35,126 nt of DNA, taken from positions 1 to 35,126 of IMG/VR virus record IMGVR_UViG_3300001844_000094; one strand, 5' to 3'. Each line of letters begins with the position of its first letter. Positions within the stretch are counted from its first letter, which is position 1. Source of the stretch: a virus. The notes under the pieces are model-generated. The model was not told the DNA's origin. It made no database searches and was given only the letters and a program-made list of their open reading frames with translations. A program made the position numbers and the translations under genes. This document shows, piece after piece, positions 4,536 to 35,126 of the stretch.

Positions 4536-4570
4536 GGAAACAGGAAGTCGATGGATGGAGGATTGGGTGA
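4532..4570 (+). CDS. 12-residue coupling mini-ORF before the Dam-like gene
   Basis: ATG 4532 overlaps the DUF1064 stop (ATGA), and its own TGA (4568-4570) overlaps the ATG of the methylase (TGATG). The ribosome site for the methylase (GGAGG at 4557-4561) lies inside it. It may deliver ribosomes to the methylase start. The peptide itself is unlikely to matter. Confidence 0.3.
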   Translation: MRKQEVDGWRIG

Positions 4571-5550
4571 TGGAAAATCTGAAAGCACCATTCCCATACT
4601 TTGGCGGAAAGAGAGCTGTGGCGGAAGCGGTGTGGGAAGCATTGGGGAACCCCGCGCATTACATTGAACCGTTCTTCGGCTCCGGCGCGGTGCTGCTTGC
4701 CCGTCCGGGTTGGAATCCGGACATGACTGAAACCGTGAACGACAAGGACGGGTTTTTATGTAATGTATGGCGGAGTTTACAATTATCACCCGATGAAACC
4801 GCGAAGTGGTGCGACTGGCCCGTGAACCATGCCGATCTAATTGCCCGTAGAAAGGTGCTTTTGGCGGGGGAATCCATGCTACTTGAAAACCTGTGCAAGG
4901 ATGATGTGTGGCATGATGTGAAGCTGGCGGGGTACTGGATTTGGGCGGCAAGCTGCTGGATCGGAACGGGGTTGACGCGCCCGAACGCGATACCCCATGT
5001 GGGTGATGCCGGAAAGGGGAAGATACCCCATGTTAGTCATGCCGGAATGGGAATACACGCAAAGGGGCAGATACCCCATGTGAGTAATGCCTTGCTATCC
5101 GATCCGTTCAAGGAAAGCATTTACTCGGATTTCCGTAAGCTGGCGGAACGGCTGCGGGGTGTGCGTGTGGTATGCGGGGATTGGAATCGCGTCTGCAACG
5201 GGAAATGGCAGGAAAAAATTGGCATTTGTGGAATGTTCTTCGATCCTCCGTATGACGGATTGGAAAGGGATACGGAATTATATCACCATGATTCAACCAC
5301 TGTCACGCATGATGCTTTTGAATGGTGTTTGGATCGCGGGAAGAATCCGAATTACCGTATCGTATTCGCGGGGTATGAAGAACATGAAGAAAAAGCCCGT
5401 GCAGCAGGATGGGGCGTTGAATCTTGGAAAGCGAACGGAGGGTATGGAAACACGGCGAGAGATGGCAAAGATTCTCGTGGCAAACAAAACTCAAATCGTG
5501 AACGCCTGTATTTTTCACCACATTGCATAAAAAGGAATACCCTTCTATGA
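4570..5550 (+). CDS. DNA adenine methyltransferase (D12 / Dam-like)
   Basis: This is a 326-residue protein that should methylate adenine N6 in DNA using S-adenosylmethionine. Visible motifs are FPYFGGKR (residues 8-15), the AdoMet-binding EPFFGSG (33-39) and the catalytic DPPY (225-228), in the order typical of class D12 enzymes. Between them is an insertion with three IPHV units (residues 141, 152 and 168), encoded by three copies of ATACCCCATGT. ATG 4570 is preferred over 4555 because GGAGG lies 8 bases upstream. It may protect phage DNA from host restriction or regulate packaging or expression. Confidence 0.92.
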   Translation: MENLKAPFPYFGGKRAVAEAVWEALGNPAHYIEPFFGSGAVLLARPGWNPDMTETVNDKDGFLCNVWRSLQLSPDETAKWCDWPVNHADLIARRKVLLAGESMLLENLCKDDVWHDVKLAGYWIWAASCWIGTGLTRPNAIPHVGDAGKGKIPHVSHAGMGIHAKGQIPHVSNALLSDPFKESIYSDFRKLAERLRGVRVVCGDWNRVCNGKWQEKIGICGMFFDPPYDGLERDTELYHHDSTTVTHDAFEWCLDRGKNPNYRIVFAGYEEHEEKARAAGWGVESWKANGGYGNTARDGKDSRGKQNSNRERLYFSPHCIKRNTLL

Positions 5551-8439: not shown

Positions 8440-9072
8440 ATGGAACGGATGAAAGTCTTGGTAGCATGTGAGTTTTCAGGCATTGTCCGTGAAGCCTTTA
8501 GGGCAAAAGGCCATGATGCGTGGAGTTGCGATTTAGTTCCAACCGAAATACCAGGGCAGCATATCCAAGGGAACGTGCTTGAAATATTGGACGATGGCTG
8601 GGATATGATGATTGCACATCCCCCATGCACACACCTATCATGTTCCGGCGCAAAACATTTCTCCAAGAAAATAGCAGACGGACGGCAACAACAGGGTATT
8701 GACTTTTTTATGAAGTTCACCACAACGAGTATTCCGCTTGTGTGTATCGAAAATCCTATTGGCATTATGTCGCGCCTTTATCGAAAGCCTGACCAAATAA
8801 TTCAGCCGTGGCAGTTTGGGCATGAGGCACAAAAATCTACTTGCCTGTGGCTGAAAGGGCTGCCGAAGTTGTGTCCAACAAACATTGTCGGTAAGGGGGA
8901 TTTTTACGTTTCTCCATCAGGAAAGAAACTTCCCGTATGGTACGGGGATGCCTCTTTGAACGGGAAGAAAATCGGGTACAACACGGAAGAAATGAAGCGG
9001 ATTCGGAACCGGACGTTTAAAGGTGTTGCAGAAGCAATGGCGGAACAATGGTCGAAACTGGAAGGGCGGTGA
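8440..9072 (+). CDS. Phage DNA cytosine-C5 methyltransferase-like protein
   Basis: This is a 210-residue protein. MKVLVACEFSGIVREAFRAKG with a following CD is the AdoMet-binding start of the Dcm family, and HPPCTHLS (about residues 60-67) carries the PPC loop with Cys63 as the likely nucleophile. ENPIG (104-108) is the conserved ENP motif. It is much shorter than usual Dcm enzymes and has no evident target-recognition domain; compact forms like this are common in phages. It may methylate phage DNA, or be a DNA-binding relic. ATG 8449 is an alternative start. Confidence 0.85.
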   Translation: MERMKVLVACEFSGIVREAFRAKGHDAWSCDLVPTEIPGQHIQGNVLEILDDGWDMMIAHPPCTHLSCSGAKHFSKKIADGRQQQGIDFFMKFTTTSIPLVCIENPIGIMSRLYRKPDQIIQPWQFGHEAQKSTCLWLKGLPKLCPTNIVGKGDFYVSPSGKKLPVWYGDASLNGKKIGYNTEEMKRIRNRTFKGVAEAMAEQWSKLEGR

Positions 9073-9158
9073 TGTGGAATGGAACAAGGTTTGCCGTGTG
9101 GTTGAAAACTGAAACCGTCCATGCCGGAAGCACGGGGAAGGAAGCAAAGGGGTATAAA

Positions 9159-28207: not shown

Positions 28208-29554
28208 TCAAGCGTTGTGCACGCCGGGGATGTATCCGCTCTGCTCCCAGAACCTTACGGGGAAGCGATAGTCGATGTAATAAGCCGCCGAGTCCGAAAC
28301 GTGACCCAATTGGCTGTCCGTGTAGTTGTCGTTCAAATATTCTTCCATCGGGATCCGCTGCATATCGTGAATCAAATGCCTAGCCTTGCGCATAACCTTC
28401 AATCTTCGTTCACCGGCTCCATTGCAAAGCATGGCATTGAATGAATTAAGCCGGTCTTTTCGGGTTGGGTTGGTTTTTTTAACCCTTATCGAAAACTCGC
28501 AACCCCTTGAGTCAAACGCCTGTTTAATCAAAACAAGGTCAGACTTCCCCGTCTCACCGTGAGGGCTTCGGTTATTGCTGGCCGCATCGGGGAAAATGAC
28601 ATAACTAACATCGGTTCCACAATGGTCGATGATGCGGTTACAGGCTTCCACCGTGCCGCAGTTGTGGAACTTGAATGCCTCATGGCATACCGGGTTACCC
28701 TGCGCGTCCTCTTGCCAAATCGTGGAACTCATTGGGTCCCAGTTGAAGTCCATTCCTACACACACCTCAAGGGTTTTATCCAAATCGTAATTGTCTATGA
28801 TATTTTCAGAACCGAACCCATAATAAGCTAACCCGTCAAACCCTTCAAAGCTCCCCTCGTATTCTTGCCGGTAAACCTTTTGGTCAAGCGACCTTTTTGC
28901 AGATTCGATTTCGGAAGGGGATAAAACATCTTCGCTGAACCAGTGATAATAGCACCACTCCGGGTCGGTTGGGCATTCAACAAACATCCCAACGCCAGCC
29001 TCGGTCTTTGGAATTGCTCCACCGCAGGCATATAGAGCCATGTCGTAAAGCTGGCCTTTCCCGTTTGGCACGCCCTCTAGAATCGCGAACCCCTTTGTAT
29101 CGGAAAGGACAGGCCGGATATTCTGCGGCCACGCGCTCGGCTTCATGTCGTCAATCTCTGTCAAATGGCATCCGTGCCACGGTTGCCCTTCGATCCGCTC
29201 CGGTTGGTCAAGTCCTACTACTGCGATCTCCGCATCGTTTATAAGGGTTATCGACAAATCCGTTTCGTTTGGCTTTTCTTTCCAAAATGGCTTTGACCAT
29301 TTCTTCATCCGCTTCCAAAATATCGCCTTCGCCTGTGCCCTTGTCGGTGCGCCCTGAAAAAACCTGTGGCCGGGACTCCTCATCGCCTTGAGTAATATCT
29401 TCTTCGACCCGATTAAAGTTTTCCTCGACCGCCTCCCCGGTGGGACAACAAAAAACCGGTGAGTCCAATCGTTTAAATACCGTTTTTGAATATCGGTTAA
29501 AGGGTACAACCGGTCAGGCATTGTTGGCGGGGTGATGGATGTCTTATACGCCAC
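28208..29554 (-). CDS. terL: Terminase large subunit
   Basis: This is a 448-residue protein. The ATPase domain has a deviant Walker A GRRSRKT (residues 40-46), a Walker B region HLTEIDDM (130-137) and a C-motif-like ILEGVPNG. The nuclease domain has GMDFNWDP, FPDAASNN and HVSDSAAYYI, whose Asp residues form the metal site. It translocates and cuts DNA during packaging. GTG 29554 overlaps the small subunit by 11 bases; an ATG 11 codons in (29521) is a possible alternative. Only the N-terminal Arg-for-Gly form of Walker A departs from the textbook. Confidence 0.93.
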   Translation of the reverse strand: MAYKTSITPPTMPDRLYPLTDIQKRYLNDWTHRFFVVPPGRRSRKTLIGSKKILLKAMRSPGHRFFQGAPTRAQAKAIFWKRMKKWSKPFWKEKPNETDLSITLINDAEIAVVGLDQPERIEGQPWHGCHLTEIDDMKPSAWPQNIRPVLSDTKGFAILEGVPNGKGQLYDMALYACGGAIPKTEAGVGMFVECPTDPEWCYYHWFSEDVLSPSEIESAKRSLDQKVYRQEYEGSFEGFDGLAYYGFGSENIIDNYDLDKTLEVCVGMDFNWDPMSSTIWQEDAQGNPVCHEAFKFHNCGTVEACNRIIDHCGTDVSYVIFPDAASNNRSPHGETGKSDLVLIKQAFDSRGCEFSIRVKKTNPTRKDRLNSFNAMLCNGAGERRLKVMRKARHLIHDMQRIPMEEYLNDNYTDSQLGHVSDSAAYYIDYRFPVRFWEQSGYIPGVHNA

Positions 29555-30149
29555 TTAACAACCCGTCCTGATGCTCCAAAACATCCGCAATCCTAGTCAG
29601 CGAATCCGCAGCCGTGCGAGGGTCAAGGACCCCAACCGGCTGATTCCATAAGCTGTGATAGTTGCCTATCAAGTCCAATGCCCTCAACTTATCCCACAGC
29701 TCAAGCTCGATTACAACCTCATCGTCACGGACAGGTTGGCCGTTCTCATCCTTCGCGTAACGGGTAATCTTCTTTTGCCGAATCTTCTTGATACACCGAG
29801 ATTGCCCCGGCTTCATGTTCGGGAAGTTCTTAAACCGAAGGTTACCGTCTTCATCCAATTCCATGAACTCCGCGATGTCCGTTTGGGCGACCAGCGACAG
29901 CTCTTTTATCACGTTTTCCGCGCTCATTGCGGCCTTATCGGACAATTCGCGCTTCAATTCTTCTATGCGAATCCTAACCTTTGGCAGTCTTAAAAGCGTA
30001 GATGCCTGCACTTCCGCCGTTTTAGCGGTGTATCCAGCGGCTATGGCTGCCTGCTTCCCGTTGAACTCTTTTACGTAATGTGAGCAAAAAAGGTCCTGTC
30101 TGCCGTTTAGGAATGATTCGCGGGGTTTTTTATGGATAGACTTAGGCAC
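29544..30149 (-). CDS. terS: Terminase small subunit
   Basis: This is a 201-residue protein. RQDLFCSHYVKEFNGKQAAIAAGY (residues 17-40) followed by TAKTAEVQASTLLRLPKV is the helix-turn-helix domain of Terminase_2 small subunits, which bind the packaging site. A long helix and an acidic middle follow, ending with a Leu-rich tail that may contact TerL. The start is GTG 30149 in my reading; no upstream ATG exists. It overlaps the 28-codon ORF upstream and the terL gene downstream. Confidence 0.87.
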   Translation of the reverse strand: MPKSIHKKPRESFLNGRQDLFCSHYVKEFNGKQAAIAAGYTAKTAEVQASTLLRLPKVRIRIEELKRELSDKAAMSAENVIKELSLVAQTDIAEFMELDEDGNLRFKNFPNMKPGQSRCIKKIRQKKITRYAKDENGQPVRDDEVVIELELWDKLRALDLIGNYHSLWNQPVGVLDPRTAADSLTRIADVLEHQDGLLSGV

Positions 30150-30292: not shown

Positions 30293-30988
30293 TCATTTTG
30301 GGTATTCCATTTGAAGGATTCCCGGCCTTTGCTTTAGGTTGGCAATTCTGGCTTCAAGTTCAATGTCCCGCGCCGATTTTTTTTGGGTAATAGTCTTTGG
30401 ATTTACTGTTAGTTTGTCCAAAAGCCATTTTTGAGCCTCTTCTTTTGTTTTGAACCTTTTAGCAAAAGCACACGGGACACCTTGTGTCTTTCGCATTGCA
30501 TCACGGGGACGGCCTACGATTACATCAGATTCACCGTTAGGAATATAACAGGCATAAACCCGCGCTCTTCCTGCTTCTTTTCTGGCTTTGATTGACTCTT
30601 TGGTTCGCCGGATTTTTCGCGGCTCAACCTTGAGAGAATGCGGCACGGCACGTTTGCACCATGAGATAGCTTTAGAAGTTCCTTTGGCGTTTAGAATGCG
30701 AGACAGCGGGAAAGAATCGACTTCTTCGTTTTGAATGCGGATTACTACCAACCCTTTGAAAGTCATCCATTGGTCGCGCTCTATGTCTTTGAGCATTTGG
30801 GCATCGTTATTGTGGTAACCGCCATCGATTTCAACAACAACACCGAGAGAAGGGATTAAAAAATCCGCGATGTACCGCCCAAGAATTACTTGGGAGCTAA
30901 CTTCTATGGAAGCATCGAGAAGCCGCGCATGAAAACGTGCCTCGGCGGCGGTTGGCTTTTGCCTCATCCGGTTTGCGTATTCTTGCAT
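30293..30988 (-). CDS. DUF559-type (Vsr-like) endonuclease with a C-terminal extra domain
   Basis: From ATG 30988 this is a 231-residue protein; TTG 30997 and TTG 31003 are further candidates near GAGGG. Residues 1-100 (RMRQKPTAAEARFHARLL, YIADFLIPSLGVVVEIDG and RDQWMTFKGLVVIRIQNEEV) match DUF559 domains of the PD-(D/E)XK / very-short-patch-repair-like nucleases; DF, EIDG and the later E/K residues form the expected site. The remaining part (RARVYACYIPNGESDVIVG and FAKRFKTKEEAQKWLLDKL) resembles the small RNase H1 N-terminal or viroplasmin-type nucleic-acid binding domain, which I consider tentative. It heads the late unit. Confidence 0.75.
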   Translation of the reverse strand: MQEYANRMRQKPTAAEARFHARLLDASIEVSSQVILGRYIADFLIPSLGVVVEIDGGYHNNDAQMLKDIERDQWMTFKGLVVIRIQNEEVDSFPLSRILNAKGTSKAISWCKRAVPHSLKVEPRKIRRTKESIKARKEAGRARVYACYIPNGESDVIVGRPRDAMRKTQGVPCAFAKRFKTKEEAQKWLLDKLTVNPKTITQKKSARDIELEARIANLKQRPGILQMEYPK

Positions 30989-31030
30989 TTTCGACAAGTA
31001 CAAACCCTCGCGGTTGAAATGCTATTCCCC

Positions 31031-31059
31031 TATATACGTTCATGTTAGCTGAATGTCAA
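31031..31059 (-). promoter_or_regulatory. Leftward sigma70-like promoter for the late unit
   Basis: On the minus strand TTGACA (31059-31054) and TATATA (31036-31031) are separated by exactly 17 bases. The -35 box is perfect and the -10 box is a fair match. It points at the DUF559 gene and terminase. The bases after the -35 (TTGACATTC) are the same as in the two rightward promoters, hinting at shared recognition. Confidence 0.6.
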
Positions 31060-31093: not shown

Positions 31094-31180
31094 TCATGGG
31101 AAAAACGGCGAAAAAACGGCAACGGGTTAAAAAAGGGGAGGGATTCAGGAAAAGTGAAAAAAAGTTTAAAAACCATTTGA
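31094..31180 (+). pseudogene. Remnant of the 3' end of a duplicated ARW-type gene
   Basis: The frame from TCA 31094 to TGA 31178-31180 encodes SWEKRRKNGNGLKKGRDSG and KVKKSLKTI. The last 28 codons of the intact gene at 32163 encode the same peptide with only three changes (Asn to Lys, Glu to Val, Leu to Ile). Upstream the frame closes at TAG 31046-31048 and has no ATG, so only the gene's 3' end was copied. The stop codon overlaps the -35 box of the promoter in both places. Confidence 0.7.
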
Positions 31181-31273
31181 CATTCTAGCTCTAGCAATAT
31201 AAAATTGTGTGTAAGAACTTCACCACAAGTTCAGCCCTTCAATGTCGAGGGGGAAACAGGAGAAAAAAAAATG
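31095..31273 (+). repeat. Duplicated control cassette, copy 1
   Basis: About 179 bases match 32311-32487 closely along their whole length, including the gene remnant, the promoter, two leader hairpins and the purine-rich ribosome site (caggagaaaaaa). The hairpins are GAACTT-CACCAC-AAGTTC (31215-31232) and CCCTTC-AATGTC-GAGGGG (31235-31252); the second differs from copy 2 in a way that keeps pairing (T.G for T-A). Downstream genes differ in most of their sequence, so the copy ends at the start codon. Confidence 0.85.
31177..31205 (+). promoter_or_regulatory. Rightward sigma70-like promoter P1
   Basis: TTGACA (31177-31182) and TAAAAT (31200-31205) are 17 bases apart, with the spacer containing CTAGCTCTAG (a CTAG-NN-CTAG pair). 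Transcription would begin near 31212 and cover a leader with two hairpins before the zinc-ribbon gene at 31271. The CTAG pair is kept in copy 2 and could be a binding site. Confidence 0.7.
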
Positions 31274-31465
31274 AAAATTCAAAAATGCGATGACTGCGGT
31301 TCTATTCGAGACGTTCGATTTTTGCGAAATTTAGGGGTTTGCCTTTGTGATTTTTGTGAAATAGACGTCCGGGCCTCGATTTACGCAAAAAACGCAATGG
31401 AAATGGAAGCCGCAGGATACCCGGAAGGGTATGCCGGGGAAACCCTCGAAACGGTGGAGGGCTAA
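31271..31465 (+). CDS. Small zinc-ribbon-like protein (cassette copy 1)
   Basis: This is a 64-residue protein from ATG 31271, directly after the duplicated ribosome site; a GTG at 31205 is in frame but overlaps the promoter. Cys6-x2-Cys9 and Cys24/Cys26-x2-Cys29 (QKCDDCGS, VCLCDFC) form a likely zinc site. The rest is a helix (RASIYAKNAMEMEAAG) and an acidic tail. It is the first gene of the rightward unit. A regulatory or host-takeover role is possible but not shown. Confidence 0.65.
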   Translation: MKIQKCDDCGSIRDVRFLRNLGVCLCDFCEIDVRASIYAKNAMEMEAAGYPEGYAGETLETVEG

Positions 31466-31468
31466 AAA

Positions 31469-31621
31469 ATGAAATACACATACCTGCAAATTCTGAAGAA
31501 CGCCCCAGAAGGAAAATACAAGGTGTACACGGGTTATGAATGGTTAGAAGGGGTTTATTCTTTAGGGACAATAAAATCGTGCATGTCTGTTAATTGGGTC
31601 ATTCAAAAGGTGGAGGGATAG
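31469..31621 (+). CDS. 50-residue small protein
   Basis: ATG 31469 comes 3 bases after the previous stop, with gtggagg upstream. The product MKYTYLQILKNAPEGKYKVY, then TGYEWLEGVYSLG and SVNWVIQKVEG is a compact beta-type peptide, rich in Tyr and Trp. No family. Like its neighbours it is a short, early-type phage gene. Confidence 0.5.
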   Translation: MKYTYLQILKNAPEGKYKVYTGYEWLEGVYSLGTIKSCMSVNWVIQKVEG

Positions 31622-31624
31622 GCC

Positions 31625-31852
31625 GTGATTACCACGCAAAAAGACCCACAAAACGCTGGAAAATGGTCTTACAAAGTTTTCAAAGGATGGGATTTAGTTG
31701 AAGAAAAAGGCGGGTTCAACTCACCAATAGAAGCCGAAAAGGCCGCCTATCCAACAAACAGGGCGGTAACTTTTGGAAATAAAAACGCAGCACAATGGAC
31801 AGGAAAAGACTGGGACGAAATCGAATCACTTTTAATGGAATTAGGAGCATAA
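31625..31852 (+). CDS. 75-residue small protein, GTG start
   Basis: GTG 31625 follows ggtggagggatagg. The product (MITTQKDPQNAGKWSYKVFK, later GKDWDEIESLLMELGA) is a mixed alpha/beta short protein with no known motif. It shares the KYK/WSYKV type of beta strand with its upstream neighbour, which may hint at a common origin. Confidence 0.55.
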   Translation: MITTQKDPQNAGKWSYKVFKGWDLVEEKGGFNSPIEAEKAAYPTNRAVTFGNKNAAQWTGKDWDEIESLLMELGA

Positions 31853-31853
31853 A

Positions 31854-32078
31854 ATGAAACTCTCCACCATCCTTTCAATCGTGGCCATTTTGGTGGCCTT
31901 TTGCCTCGGAAACCTCACCGGGTTAGCATTTCACTATCCTTCCAAAAATAAACCCGCCACCGCCTCCCTGTGCCTCGATATGCACGACCGGGACGAAGGA
32001 GCGGATGTAATCGGGGAGGATGGAATAGAACGGACGGCAGGGGCAGAGGATTTTAAAAATCTGGAGGTGTGCAAATGA
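31854..32078 (+). CDS. Small membrane-anchored acidic protein
   Basis: This is a 74-residue protein with an N-terminal hydrophobic stretch (MKLSTILSIVAILVAFCLGN, then LTGLAF) that acts as an anchor or signal, and an acidic tail (DMHDRDEGADVIGEDG). Presumably the tail is in the periplasm. Its ATG follows ttaggagcata. Role unknown. Confidence 0.55.
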   Translation: MKLSTILSIVAILVAFCLGNLTGLAFHYPSKNKPATASLCLDMHDRDEGADVIGEDGIERTAGAEDFKNLEVCK

Positions 32079-32134
32079 ACTACCGAATCCGAAAGGCTTT
32101 TCACGGGGGATGCAAAGCCCCTTTTTGTTGCTAA
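32075..32134 (+). CDS. Possible 19-residue micro-ORF
   Basis: ATG 32075 overlaps the previous stop (ATGA), with ctggaggtg upstream, and reads to TAA 32132-32134. It runs through the terminator-like hairpin at 32092-32126 and may exist only by overlap with it. The peptide ends KAPFCC. Confidence 0.25.
   Translation: MNYRIRKAFHGGCKAPFCC
32092..32126 (+). terminator. Intrinsic terminator-like hairpin
   Basis: AAAGGCTTT (32092-32100) pairs with AAAGCC..TTT (32114-32124, two C bulged), and GGGG in the loop can also pair with the CCCC at 32118-32121. A run of five T follows directly (32122-32126). This is the only strong intrinsic terminator pattern I see in the rightward unit. It would end transcription from P1 and explain why a second promoter (P2) is needed downstream. 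Confidence 0.6.
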
Positions 32135-32143
32135 CTTTAGCAA
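32128..32143. promoter_or_regulatory. Palindromic operator-like site
   Basis: TTGCTAA-CT-TTAGCAA is a perfect 7-base palindrome around two bases. It lies between the terminator and the ribosome site of the ARW-type gene at 32163, a common place for an operator. AT-rich sequence follows. Protein partner unknown; the HTH proteins at 340 and 26553 are candidates. Confidence 0.45.
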
Positions 32144-32162
32144 AATAATTTAAGGGGGACTC

Positions 32163-32396
32163 ATGTCAAAAAATATTCATGCGGTAGAATTGGGAAAAGC
32201 ACGGTGGAAAAACCTTTCACAGGAAGAGCGGTCAGCAGTGGCACGTTTGGGAGGCTTGAAGAAATGGGAAGGGAAAAGCAAGGAGGAACGGACGGCGATT
32301 GCTCTAAAATCATGGGAAAATCGCCGAAAAAACGGGAACGGGTTAAAAAAGGGGAGAGATTCAGGAAAAGAGAAAAAAAGTTTAAAAACCCTTTGA
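32163..32396 (+). CDS. Small basic protein with two ARW/EER repeats
   Basis: This is a 77-residue Lys/Arg-rich protein with a strong ribosome site (aaggggg). It holds two imperfect repeats: GKARWKNLSQEERSAVARLGG and LKKWEGKSKEERTAIALKSWE. Such A..RW....EER repeats occur in short plasmid and phage proteins; they are probably helical and disordered and may bind nucleic acid. The last 28 codons and the stop were copied to 31094-31180. Its TGA stop lies inside the -35 box of P2. Confidence 0.65.
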   Translation: MSKNIHAVELGKARWKNLSQEERSAVARLGGLKKWEGKSKEERTAIALKSWENRRKNGNGLKKGRDSGKEKKSLKTL

Positions 32397-32487
32397 CATT
32401 CTAGCCCTAGTACTATAAATTTTGCGTAAGAACTTCACCACAAGTTCAGCCCTTCAATTCCGAAGGGTAAACGGGAGAAAAAAAATG
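32311..32487 (+). repeat. Duplicated control cassette, copy 2
   Basis: This is the counterpart of 31095-31273: the 3' end of the ARW-type gene, the P2 promoter, the leader hairpins GAACTT-CACCAC-AAGTTC (32430-32447) and CCCTTC-AATTCC-GAAGGG (32450-32467), and the ribosome site cgggagaaaaaa. The gene end is intact here, so this copy is likely the original and copy 1 the derived one. The two copies lie about 1.2 kb apart, which allows recombination between them. Confidence 0.85.
32393..32421 (+). promoter_or_regulatory. Rightward sigma70-like promoter P2
   Basis: TTGACA (32393-32398) and TAAATT (32416-32421) are 17 bases apart; a TATAAA two bases earlier is an alternative -10. The spacer has CTAGCCCTAG, the same CTAG-NN-CTAG pair as in P1. 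The -35 box overlaps the TGA of the gene at 32163. It would drive the second zinc-ribbon gene and the recombination and replication genes. Confidence 0.65.
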
Positions 32488-32721
32488 ACACGTGAATGGA
32501 GCCGAACAGCCGCAGAATTCGAGGACGATTACACCGATGCCGATACCATGAATCCGGTGCTGGAAGAAATCGACCCGCCATGCTGCCCGAATTGTGACAA
32601 GGAGAATGACGGGACGCTTTGCCGGGAATGCTCGGAACTTCCCGAGGATGAATTGACCATTGGGTATCTGATGGACATTGGGAAGCTGCCAAAGGATTAT
32701 TTAATCCGGGGGATGAAATGA
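32485..32721 (+). CDS. Small zinc-ribbon-like protein (cassette copy 2)
   Basis: This is a 78-residue acidic protein from ATG 32485, just after the duplicated ribosome site; ATG 32422 would overlap the leader hairpins and is unlikely. Cys34-x2-Cys37 and Cys46-x2-Cys49 (CPNCDKEN, LCREC) make a short zinc-ribbon or rubredoxin-like site. The N-terminal half is acidic and the C-terminal half helical (ELTIGYLMDIGKLPKDYLI). It overlaps the next gene (ATGA). Unknown role, probably early. Confidence 0.65.
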   Translation: MTREWSRTAAEFEDDYTDADTMNPVLEEIDPPCCPNCDKENDGTLCRECSELPEDELTIGYLMDIGKLPKDYLIRGMK

Positions 32722-32939: not shown

Positions 32940-33112
32940 ATAACACACCGGCACGGGCTTTGCCGCTCCTGTTTGTAAAAGCAAAGGCAATGACAAACGC
33001 TCCCAGCGTTCCTGTGGGCTTGAATGTCCGAACCGTTCAAGCCGCGCATCGTGGTAATGCGTCCGGTAAACTTTTACCAATGAAACAACCAAACACGAAA
33101 GGCAAAAAATGA
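32936..33112 (+). CDS. 58-residue basic protein (uncertain)
   Basis: ATG 32936 overlaps the previous stop (ATGA) and the stop overlaps the ERF start (ATGA), so it fits the operon. The composition (Ala/Pro/Lys-rich, AHRGNASGKLL) is unremarkable. Another frame here reads CKSKG and CGLECPN, zinc-finger-like, but lacks a start codon. Either the ORF is real or the region is a decayed gene. Confidence 0.45.
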   Translation: MNNTPARALPLLFVKAKAMTNAPSVPVGLNVRTVQAAHRGNASGKLLPMKQPNTKGKK

Positions 33113-33795
33113 AAACATCGGAATCAATCAAAGAACTTTCCACCGCGCTATCAAAAGCGCAGGCGGAAATCAAAGGAGCGGAAAAGGATGCGGACAATCC
33201 TTTTTTCAACTCCAGTTATGCAACCCTTGACAGCGTTTGGCAAGCGTGCCGCGCAGCTTTGACAAAGCAAGGGCTATCCGTTGCGCAAGGTGCAGAAGGT
33301 GACGGCGATACGGTAAAAGTCGTTACCCGCCTCATGCACTCATCCGGCGAATGGATTGAAAGCGAACTCACCGTAAAACCCATGAAGATGAAATCGGATC
33401 GAACGGACACGGAAAAAGTCGTCACGCCTCAATCACTTGGATCGGCTTTGACGTATGCACGGCGTTACAGTTTGGCCGCGATGGTTGGAGTCGCACCCGA
33501 AGATGATGATGGAAACGCAGCAAGCCAGCCAAAGGGGCAAGCAACTGAATTGCCTCAAGCAGACCTCGGTGATTTTGAAGATACCGTTAAGGACGTGCGC
33601 CAGCGCAAAGCCGGGAACGGGATAATCTTTTCCATTGAACTTAACGAGCATGGGAAACTCGAAACGTGGAGCATTGACGTTGCGACACTTTGCAAGTCGC
33701 ACAAGGGAACCGGAACGGTTTTGCTTTTCTCAAGTGAACCGACAAAATACGGGCCGCAAATCAAAGCTGCTGCCGTGAAAGAAGGTGACGCATGA
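33109..33795 (+). CDS. erf: ERF family single-strand annealing protein
   Basis: This is a 228-residue protein. NPFFNSSYATLDSVWQ (residues 30-45), GEWIESELTVKP (80-91) and TPQSLGSALTYARRYSLAAMVG (106-127) are the conserved blocks of the ERF family. EDDDGN follows at 131-136. It anneals complementary single strands in phage recombination and can circularise phage DNA. The C-terminal 90 residues (FSIELNEHGKLETWSIDVATL) look like a small beta domain. It overlaps the SSB-like gene (ATGA), so the two are likely co-produced. Confidence 0.93.
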   Translation: MKTSESIKELSTALSKAQAEIKGAEKDADNPFFNSSYATLDSVWQACRAALTKQGLSVAQGAEGDGDTVKVVTRLMHSSGEWIESELTVKPMKMKSDRTDTEKVVTPQSLGSALTYARRYSLAAMVGVAPEDDDGNAASQPKGQATELPQADLGDFEDTVKDVRQRKAGNGIIFSIELNEHGKLETWSIDVATLCKSHKGTGTVLLFSSEPTKYGPQIKAAAVKEGDA

Positions 33796-34763: not shown

Positions 34764-35126
34764 ATGAAATTTGGAAATTGGCTGAAAGAAAACGGTGCTT
34801 GCAAGGAAGGATTCAATGCGCATTCACATCAAACGGAACAGGAATTCTGGAATACCTGTAATCGTGGTGATTGGATGTTATGGGTTGCGCAAAGGAAATA
34901 CGGAACAAATGGATGGCCTGACCATTTAGCATTCGTAAAAATCGCTTGCATTGTTGGTCGCCGATCTTTGATTCATTGCCGCGAAAATGATAAAGCGGTT
35001 TGCGAAGCCGCTTATGACACTGCCGAAAAATTCATTGAAAGTCAAACAGAAGAAAATCGCAACGCAGCCAACTCCGCCGCCTATGCCGCCGCCTATGCCG
35101 CCGCCGCCAACGCCTACTACACCGCC
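34764..35126 (+). CDS. 5' part of the Ala/Tyr-repeat, Imm-5-like protein (cut by the window end)
   Basis: 121 codons are open to the last base. The N-terminal domain (NWLKENGACKEGF; WNTCNRGDWMLWVAQRKYG; FVKIACIVGRRSLIH; VCEAAYDTAEKFIE) matches the putative Imm-5-like immunity domain seen in bacterial and phage proteins (C.EA..W, A...C.RGDW.LW, CAR..L). It then enters the Ala/Tyr/Ser/Asn repeat that continues at bases 2-226. ATG 34764 follows gaaggtgac. In bacteria such proteins are thought to neutralise toxins; here it might act against a host defence, but this is inference. Confidence 0.7.
   Translation, partial: MKFGNWLKENGACKEGFNAHSHQTEQEFWNTCNRGDWMLWVAQRKYGTNGWPDHLAFVKIACIVGRRSLIHCRENDKAVCEAAYDTAEKFIESQTEENRNAANSAAYAAAYAAAANAYYTA

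Follow-up and report, generated by a model that had tools for sequence, protein, structure and literature searches.

Genes and features of the locus

The window, by which we mean the whole stretch of DNA analysed, is a virus record of 35,126 bases. The terminase genes lie on its leftward strand, and portal-like and other structural genes probably follow beyond them in the same direction, judging from their position and from PHROG-type matches. The rightward strand carries small ORFans and then a gene for an Erf-type recombinase, while the other end of the record encodes, again rightward, a DnaB-type helicase, a DUF1064 (Holliday-junction-resolvase-like) protein, methyltransferases and an HU/IHF-like DNA-binding protein. 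A GCC-rich repeat of the same kind was noted at both ends of the record (1-173 and 35055-35126), which suggests that the ends fall in one repetitive gene; the record may end within such a gene, or the genome may be circular. Three imperfect 30-nt repeats (GATACCCCATGT...) were also seen at 4989-5099, inside the methyltransferase ORF 4555-5550. The features of the locus are as follows.

28208-29554, leftward: terminase large subunit, on the structural-gene strand
29544-30149, leftward: terminase small subunit, on the structural-gene strand
30293-31003, minus strand: DUF559 endonuclease-like gene, from family search
31031-31059, minus strand: putative divergent leftward promoter P_L, TTGACA-17-TATATA, from pattern scan
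31094-31273, plus strand: cassette copy 1 (A-rich upstream flank, promoter, leader, ribosome site, ATG), in direct repeat with 32310-32487
31177-31205, plus strand: predicted promoter P_R1, TTGACA-17-TAAAAT, 11/12 consensus matches
31215-31232, plus strand: hairpin 1 of copy 1 (GAACTT-CACCAC-AAGTTC), identical in copy 2
31235-31252, plus strand: hairpin 2 of copy 1 (CCCTTC-AATGTC-GAGGGG), one U-A to U-G change, pairing kept
31271-31465, plus strand: first gene after copy 1 (64 aa with five Cys), matching no family
32093-32126, plus strand: weak terminator-like hairpin between the copies, -7.9 kcal/mol, z 0.1
32163-32396, plus strand: 77-aa ORF rich in lysine; its 3' end doubles as the upstream flank of copy 2
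32310-32487, plus strand: cassette copy 2, which covers the final 28 codons and the stop of ORF 32163-32396
32393-32421, plus strand: predicted promoter P_R2, TTGACA-17-TAAATT, 10/12 consensus matches, also TATAAA with a spacer of 15
32430-32447, plus strand: hairpin 1 of copy 2, from folding, identical to copy 1
32450-32467, plus strand: hairpin 2 of copy 2 (CCCTTC-AATTCC-GAAGGG), from folding
32485-32721, plus strand: first gene after copy 2 (78 aa with five Cys); its zinc-ribbon match, DZR_2, falls below threshold (E 0.023)
33109-33795, plus strand: Erf-type single-strand annealing protein, encoded in the unit that follows copy 2 (PF04404, E 7e-30; phrog_2324)

The duplicated block and its promoters

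The two copies of the cassette, 180 nt and 178 nt in length and spaced by 1216, are about 90% identical with two one-base gaps. When copy 1 was used as a blastn query against its own virus record (35,126 bases), copy 2 was recovered at E 1.4e-65 and the third-best match was just 17 nt long, and thus a chance likeness between A-rich sequences, the sequence-wide doubt attached to the original prediction, is excluded. A repeat search and a covariance model returned just these two copies in the window. The 5' boundary of the repeat falls inside the 77-aa ORF, at 32310, in copy 2 and at a gene-free point upstream of copy 1, while its 3' boundary is the ATG at 31271 and the ATG at 32485, with no alignment beyond either boundary. 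The duplication of a block running from a coding 3' end through a promoter to the next start codon was thereby confirmed, as was the observation that each copy precedes a different small Cys-rich gene, the proteins of 64 and 78 aa being non-homologous with five Cys each.

Differences between the copies amount to 6/83 positions in the upstream flank, 0/6 in the -35, 3/17 in the spacer and one in the -10; within the leader there are 0/18 in hairpin 1, none in the 5' arm of hairpin 2, 2/6 in its loop and 1/6 in its 3' arm. A run of 33 identical bases spans hairpin 1 and the 5' half of hairpin 2, and at about 10% divergence the core promoter and ribosome-site elements are intact in both copies.

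The pattern TTGACA-N17-TANA was found at three sites in the 35-kb window (P_R1, P_R2 and P_L) against 0.28 expected, and none of 100 shuffles reached three. Common to all three promoters is TTGACATTC, which has four occurrences against 0.42 expected. P_R1 and P_R2 are predicted host-sigma70 promoters, both of which would be expected to fire. P_L (TTGACATTCAGCTAACATGAACGTATATA on the minus strand, 31059-31031), which was absent from the original prediction, faces the DUF559 gene and the terminase genes, and therefore copy 1 appears to be the rightward half of a divergent promoter pair; copy 2 would be a second rightward start 1.2 kb past copy 1.

The flank of copy 2 encodes the final 28 codons of ORF 32163, the earlier part of which has a clear in-frame coding signal ahead of the cassette. 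This copied gene-end DNA also forms the A-rich flank immediately upstream of the -35, which offers a simple reason why a gene end should have been copied, and the description of it as a useless gene end was thus not borne out. From what is generally understood of sigma70 promoters, we take the flank to be a plausible candidate UP-element region. The A-tracts upstream of the -35 showed no 10.5-bp phasing, and the idea of phased tracts or curvature is unsupported. Within the gene-end part, third positions of the 77-aa frame account for four of the six differences, a number too small to settle its history, and a 30-aa ORF starting at ATG 31096/32312, considered as a conserved unit, was disfavoured with most differences at its first codon positions.

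A terminator had been placed at 32092-32126, between the copies, and had been held to make the second promoter functionally necessary. The hairpin at this position is at chance level (z ~0.1), and the region contains five terminator-like sites, fewer than the 9.3 in shuffles. ORF 32163 begins just behind the hairpin, and as a consensus scan detected no promoter for this ORF, transcripts from copy 1 presumably extend into it. Thus neither the terminator nor the necessity of the second promoter is supported, the latter because the terminator is at chance level and the ORF behind it lacks a scan-detected promoter. A 19-codon ORF (MNYRIRKAFHGGCKAPFCC) at 32075-32134 was seen to overlap the terminator-like hairpin.

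The two-hairpin leader

Read as RNA, the leader consists of hairpin 1 (GAACUU-CACCAC-AAGUUC), one to two bases, hairpin 2 (CCCUUC-N6-GARGGG), AAAC(A/G)GGAG, an A-run and AUG, with AGGAG or GGGAG as the ribosome site in the two copies. Both leaders fold into the same two adjacent 6-bp hairpins, which had been missing from the first description of the block. Hairpins 1 and 2 of copy 2 form the sole fully Watson-Crick tandem 6-bp hairpin pair in the window, and folding of this leader stood well apart from shuffles (z -4.6, 0/200), while folding of the copy 1 leader was just modestly above them (z -1.35). Tandem 6-bp hairpins arose in 56/5000 and 16/5000 shuffles of the two leaders. With a looser definition, no general excess of tandem hairpins was found in 2036 leaders of the phage and its relatives (309 against 303 shuffled), and thus the hairpins alone are modest evidence. 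They may act at the RNA level, through protection of the mRNA or exposure of the ribosome site.

An alternative is that the leader serves antitermination, whether as a put-like RNA that acts on RNA polymerase or as a nut-like site recognised by a phage protein; placed after each early promoter, it would let polymerase pass weak terminators. The put RNAs of HK022, of ~70 nt with two long irregular stems, lie behind early promoters and bring about terminator readthrough through the zinc-binding domain of the RNA polymerase beta' subunit (PMC9378689); the window similarly has two stem-loops, 1-2 bases apart, close behind each of two early promoters, and downstream of copy 1 lie the terminator-like hairpin and ORF 32163 with no scan-detected promoter. 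However, the window element is 38 nt with plain 6-bp stems, it showed no sequence or covariance-model similarity to HK022 and no Rfam match, and its hairpins stand just ~20 nt from the start codon, where they would be equally suited to translation. Antitermination is a possible but unlikely role for the leader.

We likewise give little credence to the palindromes being DNA operators at which a phage or host repressor would close both early promoters together. While hairpin 1 is a perfect 18-bp palindrome lying ~3-20 bp past the predicted start and identical in both copies, and the palindrome centres are 20 bp apart, the two palindromes differ from each other, the loop is conserved as much as the arms, and the change in hairpin 2 keeps the RNA U-G pairing but breaks the DNA symmetry. 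In addition, no copy of the palindrome is present at the divergent promoter, and the proteins searched included none recognised as a repressor or integrase.

Repeated leaders in other phages and the role of the cassette

Searches of phage records, plasmids, viral contigs and bacterial genomes brought up no DNA relative of the block, and the proposal of a mobile regulatory block is therefore unsupported; the related phages searched did not carry it in front of other genes either. The nearest terL relatives are ~59% identical, with less than 60% identity to any record found. Among these, G001-G003 contain neither the cassette nor Erf, and a genome scan with the terL alignment returned no prophage. 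The exact long hairpin pattern had 0 matches in viral contigs, and the proteins of the small genes, used as queries, found no relatives. A few candidates were examined and set aside. Single 18-mer and 20-mer matches, chance-level in number, were not leaders, that in L171 being within a coding ORF and that in L172 off a gene start; the match of ORF 32163 in L173 was to a stretch of a large unrelated protein; and the repeats in L109, L041, L010, L013, L155 and L161 look like coding repeats. A leader match in L005 and L007 (E ~0.05), comprising one hairpin before AACAGGAGATAAAAATG, was judged convergent. These two are early leaders of Erf phages (L005 2539-2599, L007 1076-1136) in which one strong hairpin (CGCACCGCCGGTGCG) stands immediately before that motif.

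A set of 2036 start leaders, drawn from the window and from about 150 related loci, was compared as register-matched pairs within and between genomes. Pairs within one genome were 16-29 times commoner than pairs between genomes at 30-50 bits, and the window cassette pair was the strongest case at 110 bits. Three cousin phages carry the following features.

L144, 13394-15892, minus strand: three promoter-leader cassettes with ribosome site (TTGAC-18-TATATT) and a degenerate fourth
L116, 7946-8013 and 8834-8903, minus strand: two-hairpin leaders before two small genes
L123, a relative of L116, about 9034-9101, minus strand: two-hairpin leader, compared with the L116 leaders

In L144 (terL 35%), the promoter TTGAC(C/G/T)-17-TATATT with the shared spacer GGGCTC and a shared leader stands directly before three small genes within ~1.8 kb, and GATCGAAAATAA is found upstream of two of the three cassettes and of the degenerate fourth (3/4). 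In L116 (terL 39%), a promoter, a two-hairpin leader and AGGAGG stand at the head of an operon, before its first gene, and this operon runs divergently from an HNH-like gene and the terminase genes. The leader with AGGAGG recurs 888 nt downstream, without the promoter, before another small gene. A second leader pair was noted in L116 at 2534 and 609 (minus strand). Among the leaders of L116 and L123, compensatory C-G/U-G/U-A and G-C/C-G exchanges keep the pairing, which points to selection on the RNA in those phages.

The cousins share architecture with the window cassette and not sequence. That they repeat unrelated leaders or promoters of their own at the starts of small genes lends indirect support to the part of the original prediction that invoked selection for repeated control points. 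It appears improbable, although conceivable, that the two-hairpin leader is a new small RNA element marking early transcripts of this phage group, through antitermination or the binding of a phage or host protein, and functionally parallel to the unrelated repeated leaders of L116 and L123. That an old tandem duplication or gene replacement left the second copy behind as a neutral remnant, with one promoter alone mattering, is unlikely: two-copy families can persist by chance, and the four of six third-position differences would allow both stretches to have once been gene ends, but core promoter and ribosome site have outlasted 10% divergence in both copies, the boundaries are start codons, and within-genome leader repeats are enriched in the cousins.

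Several known systems resemble the cassette. The SAS/ESAS of Cluster K mycobacteriophages, and similar motifs of Microbacterium EF/EG phages, are blocks of dyad-symmetric leader and ribosome site before small non-structural genes, present in 8-19 shorter copies per genome and lacking a promoter (PMC3203893, PMC7302621). The window repeat likewise ends at the start codons of different, non-homologous genes (31271 and 32485) and combines a ribosome site, AGGAG/GGGAG, with two hairpins where ESAS has an upstream inverted repeat; in contrast, it has just two long copies that include the promoter, and we claim no sequence relation, the published SAS/ESAS consensus GGGATAGGAGCCC not being seen in the window leaders. 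The PeSL of T4-type phages, as outlined in two papers (PMC4503421, PMC5931544) that cite Arbiol 2010 and Comeau 2014, pair an early promoter with a stem-loop, are repeated before different small early genes and can seed recombination. On that outline the window cassette is also an early promoter with stem-loop repeated between small genes, but its hairpins lie in the leader after the promoter, it has two copies only, and it belongs to a different phage group (~35-kb, not T4-type); moreover, shuffling between genomes marks PeSL in that outline, whereas no copy of the window block was found elsewhere. In mycobacteriophage Corndog, gene 14 was gained between flanking 17-bp repeats and relatives with the empty site exist (PMC4351075). 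There, as here, a direct repeat flanking small genes offers a recombination route to their gain and loss; no empty-site relatives were found for the window. The cassette fits the known repeated-leader kind, but by defining sequence it is neither SAS/ESAS nor PeSL.

Alongside the observed duplication, its anatomy, the rarity of its promoters and the recurrence in cousins, we consider it probable that the block serves a small tailed phage as an early promoter-leader cassette, present in duplicate, with one of two consecutive early transcription units starting from each copy. Each copy would supply an A-rich flank, a host-sigma70 promoter, a ~60-nt two-hairpin leader and an exposed ribosome site before the ATG. 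Copy 1 would start the first rightward unit of five or six small ORFan genes, and copy 2, 1.2 kb on, would restart transcription for the zinc-ribbon-like gene, Erf and onward. The copies may have come from an old illegitimate or homologous recombination, most simply from copy 2 to copy 1, since the whole upstream gene is present at copy 2 only, after which they would have diverged by ~10%, with promoter, hairpins and ribosome site preserved in form. Using the cassette again would allow new small genes to be added in front with their control already in place, and recombination between its two copies would remove the 1216-bp module that separates them.

The cassette is of an ordinary kind but an unusually clear case, and it adds a new example of a habit already known from phage genomes. 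If the two-hairpin leader has a job at the RNA level, it would be a compact part worth characterising. The repetition of a genome's own start leader is suggested to be a recurrent phage habit, carried out with lineage-specific sequences, and the cassette illustrates a route by which a phage would bring new small early genes under ready-made control, through the re-use of one promoter-leader block.
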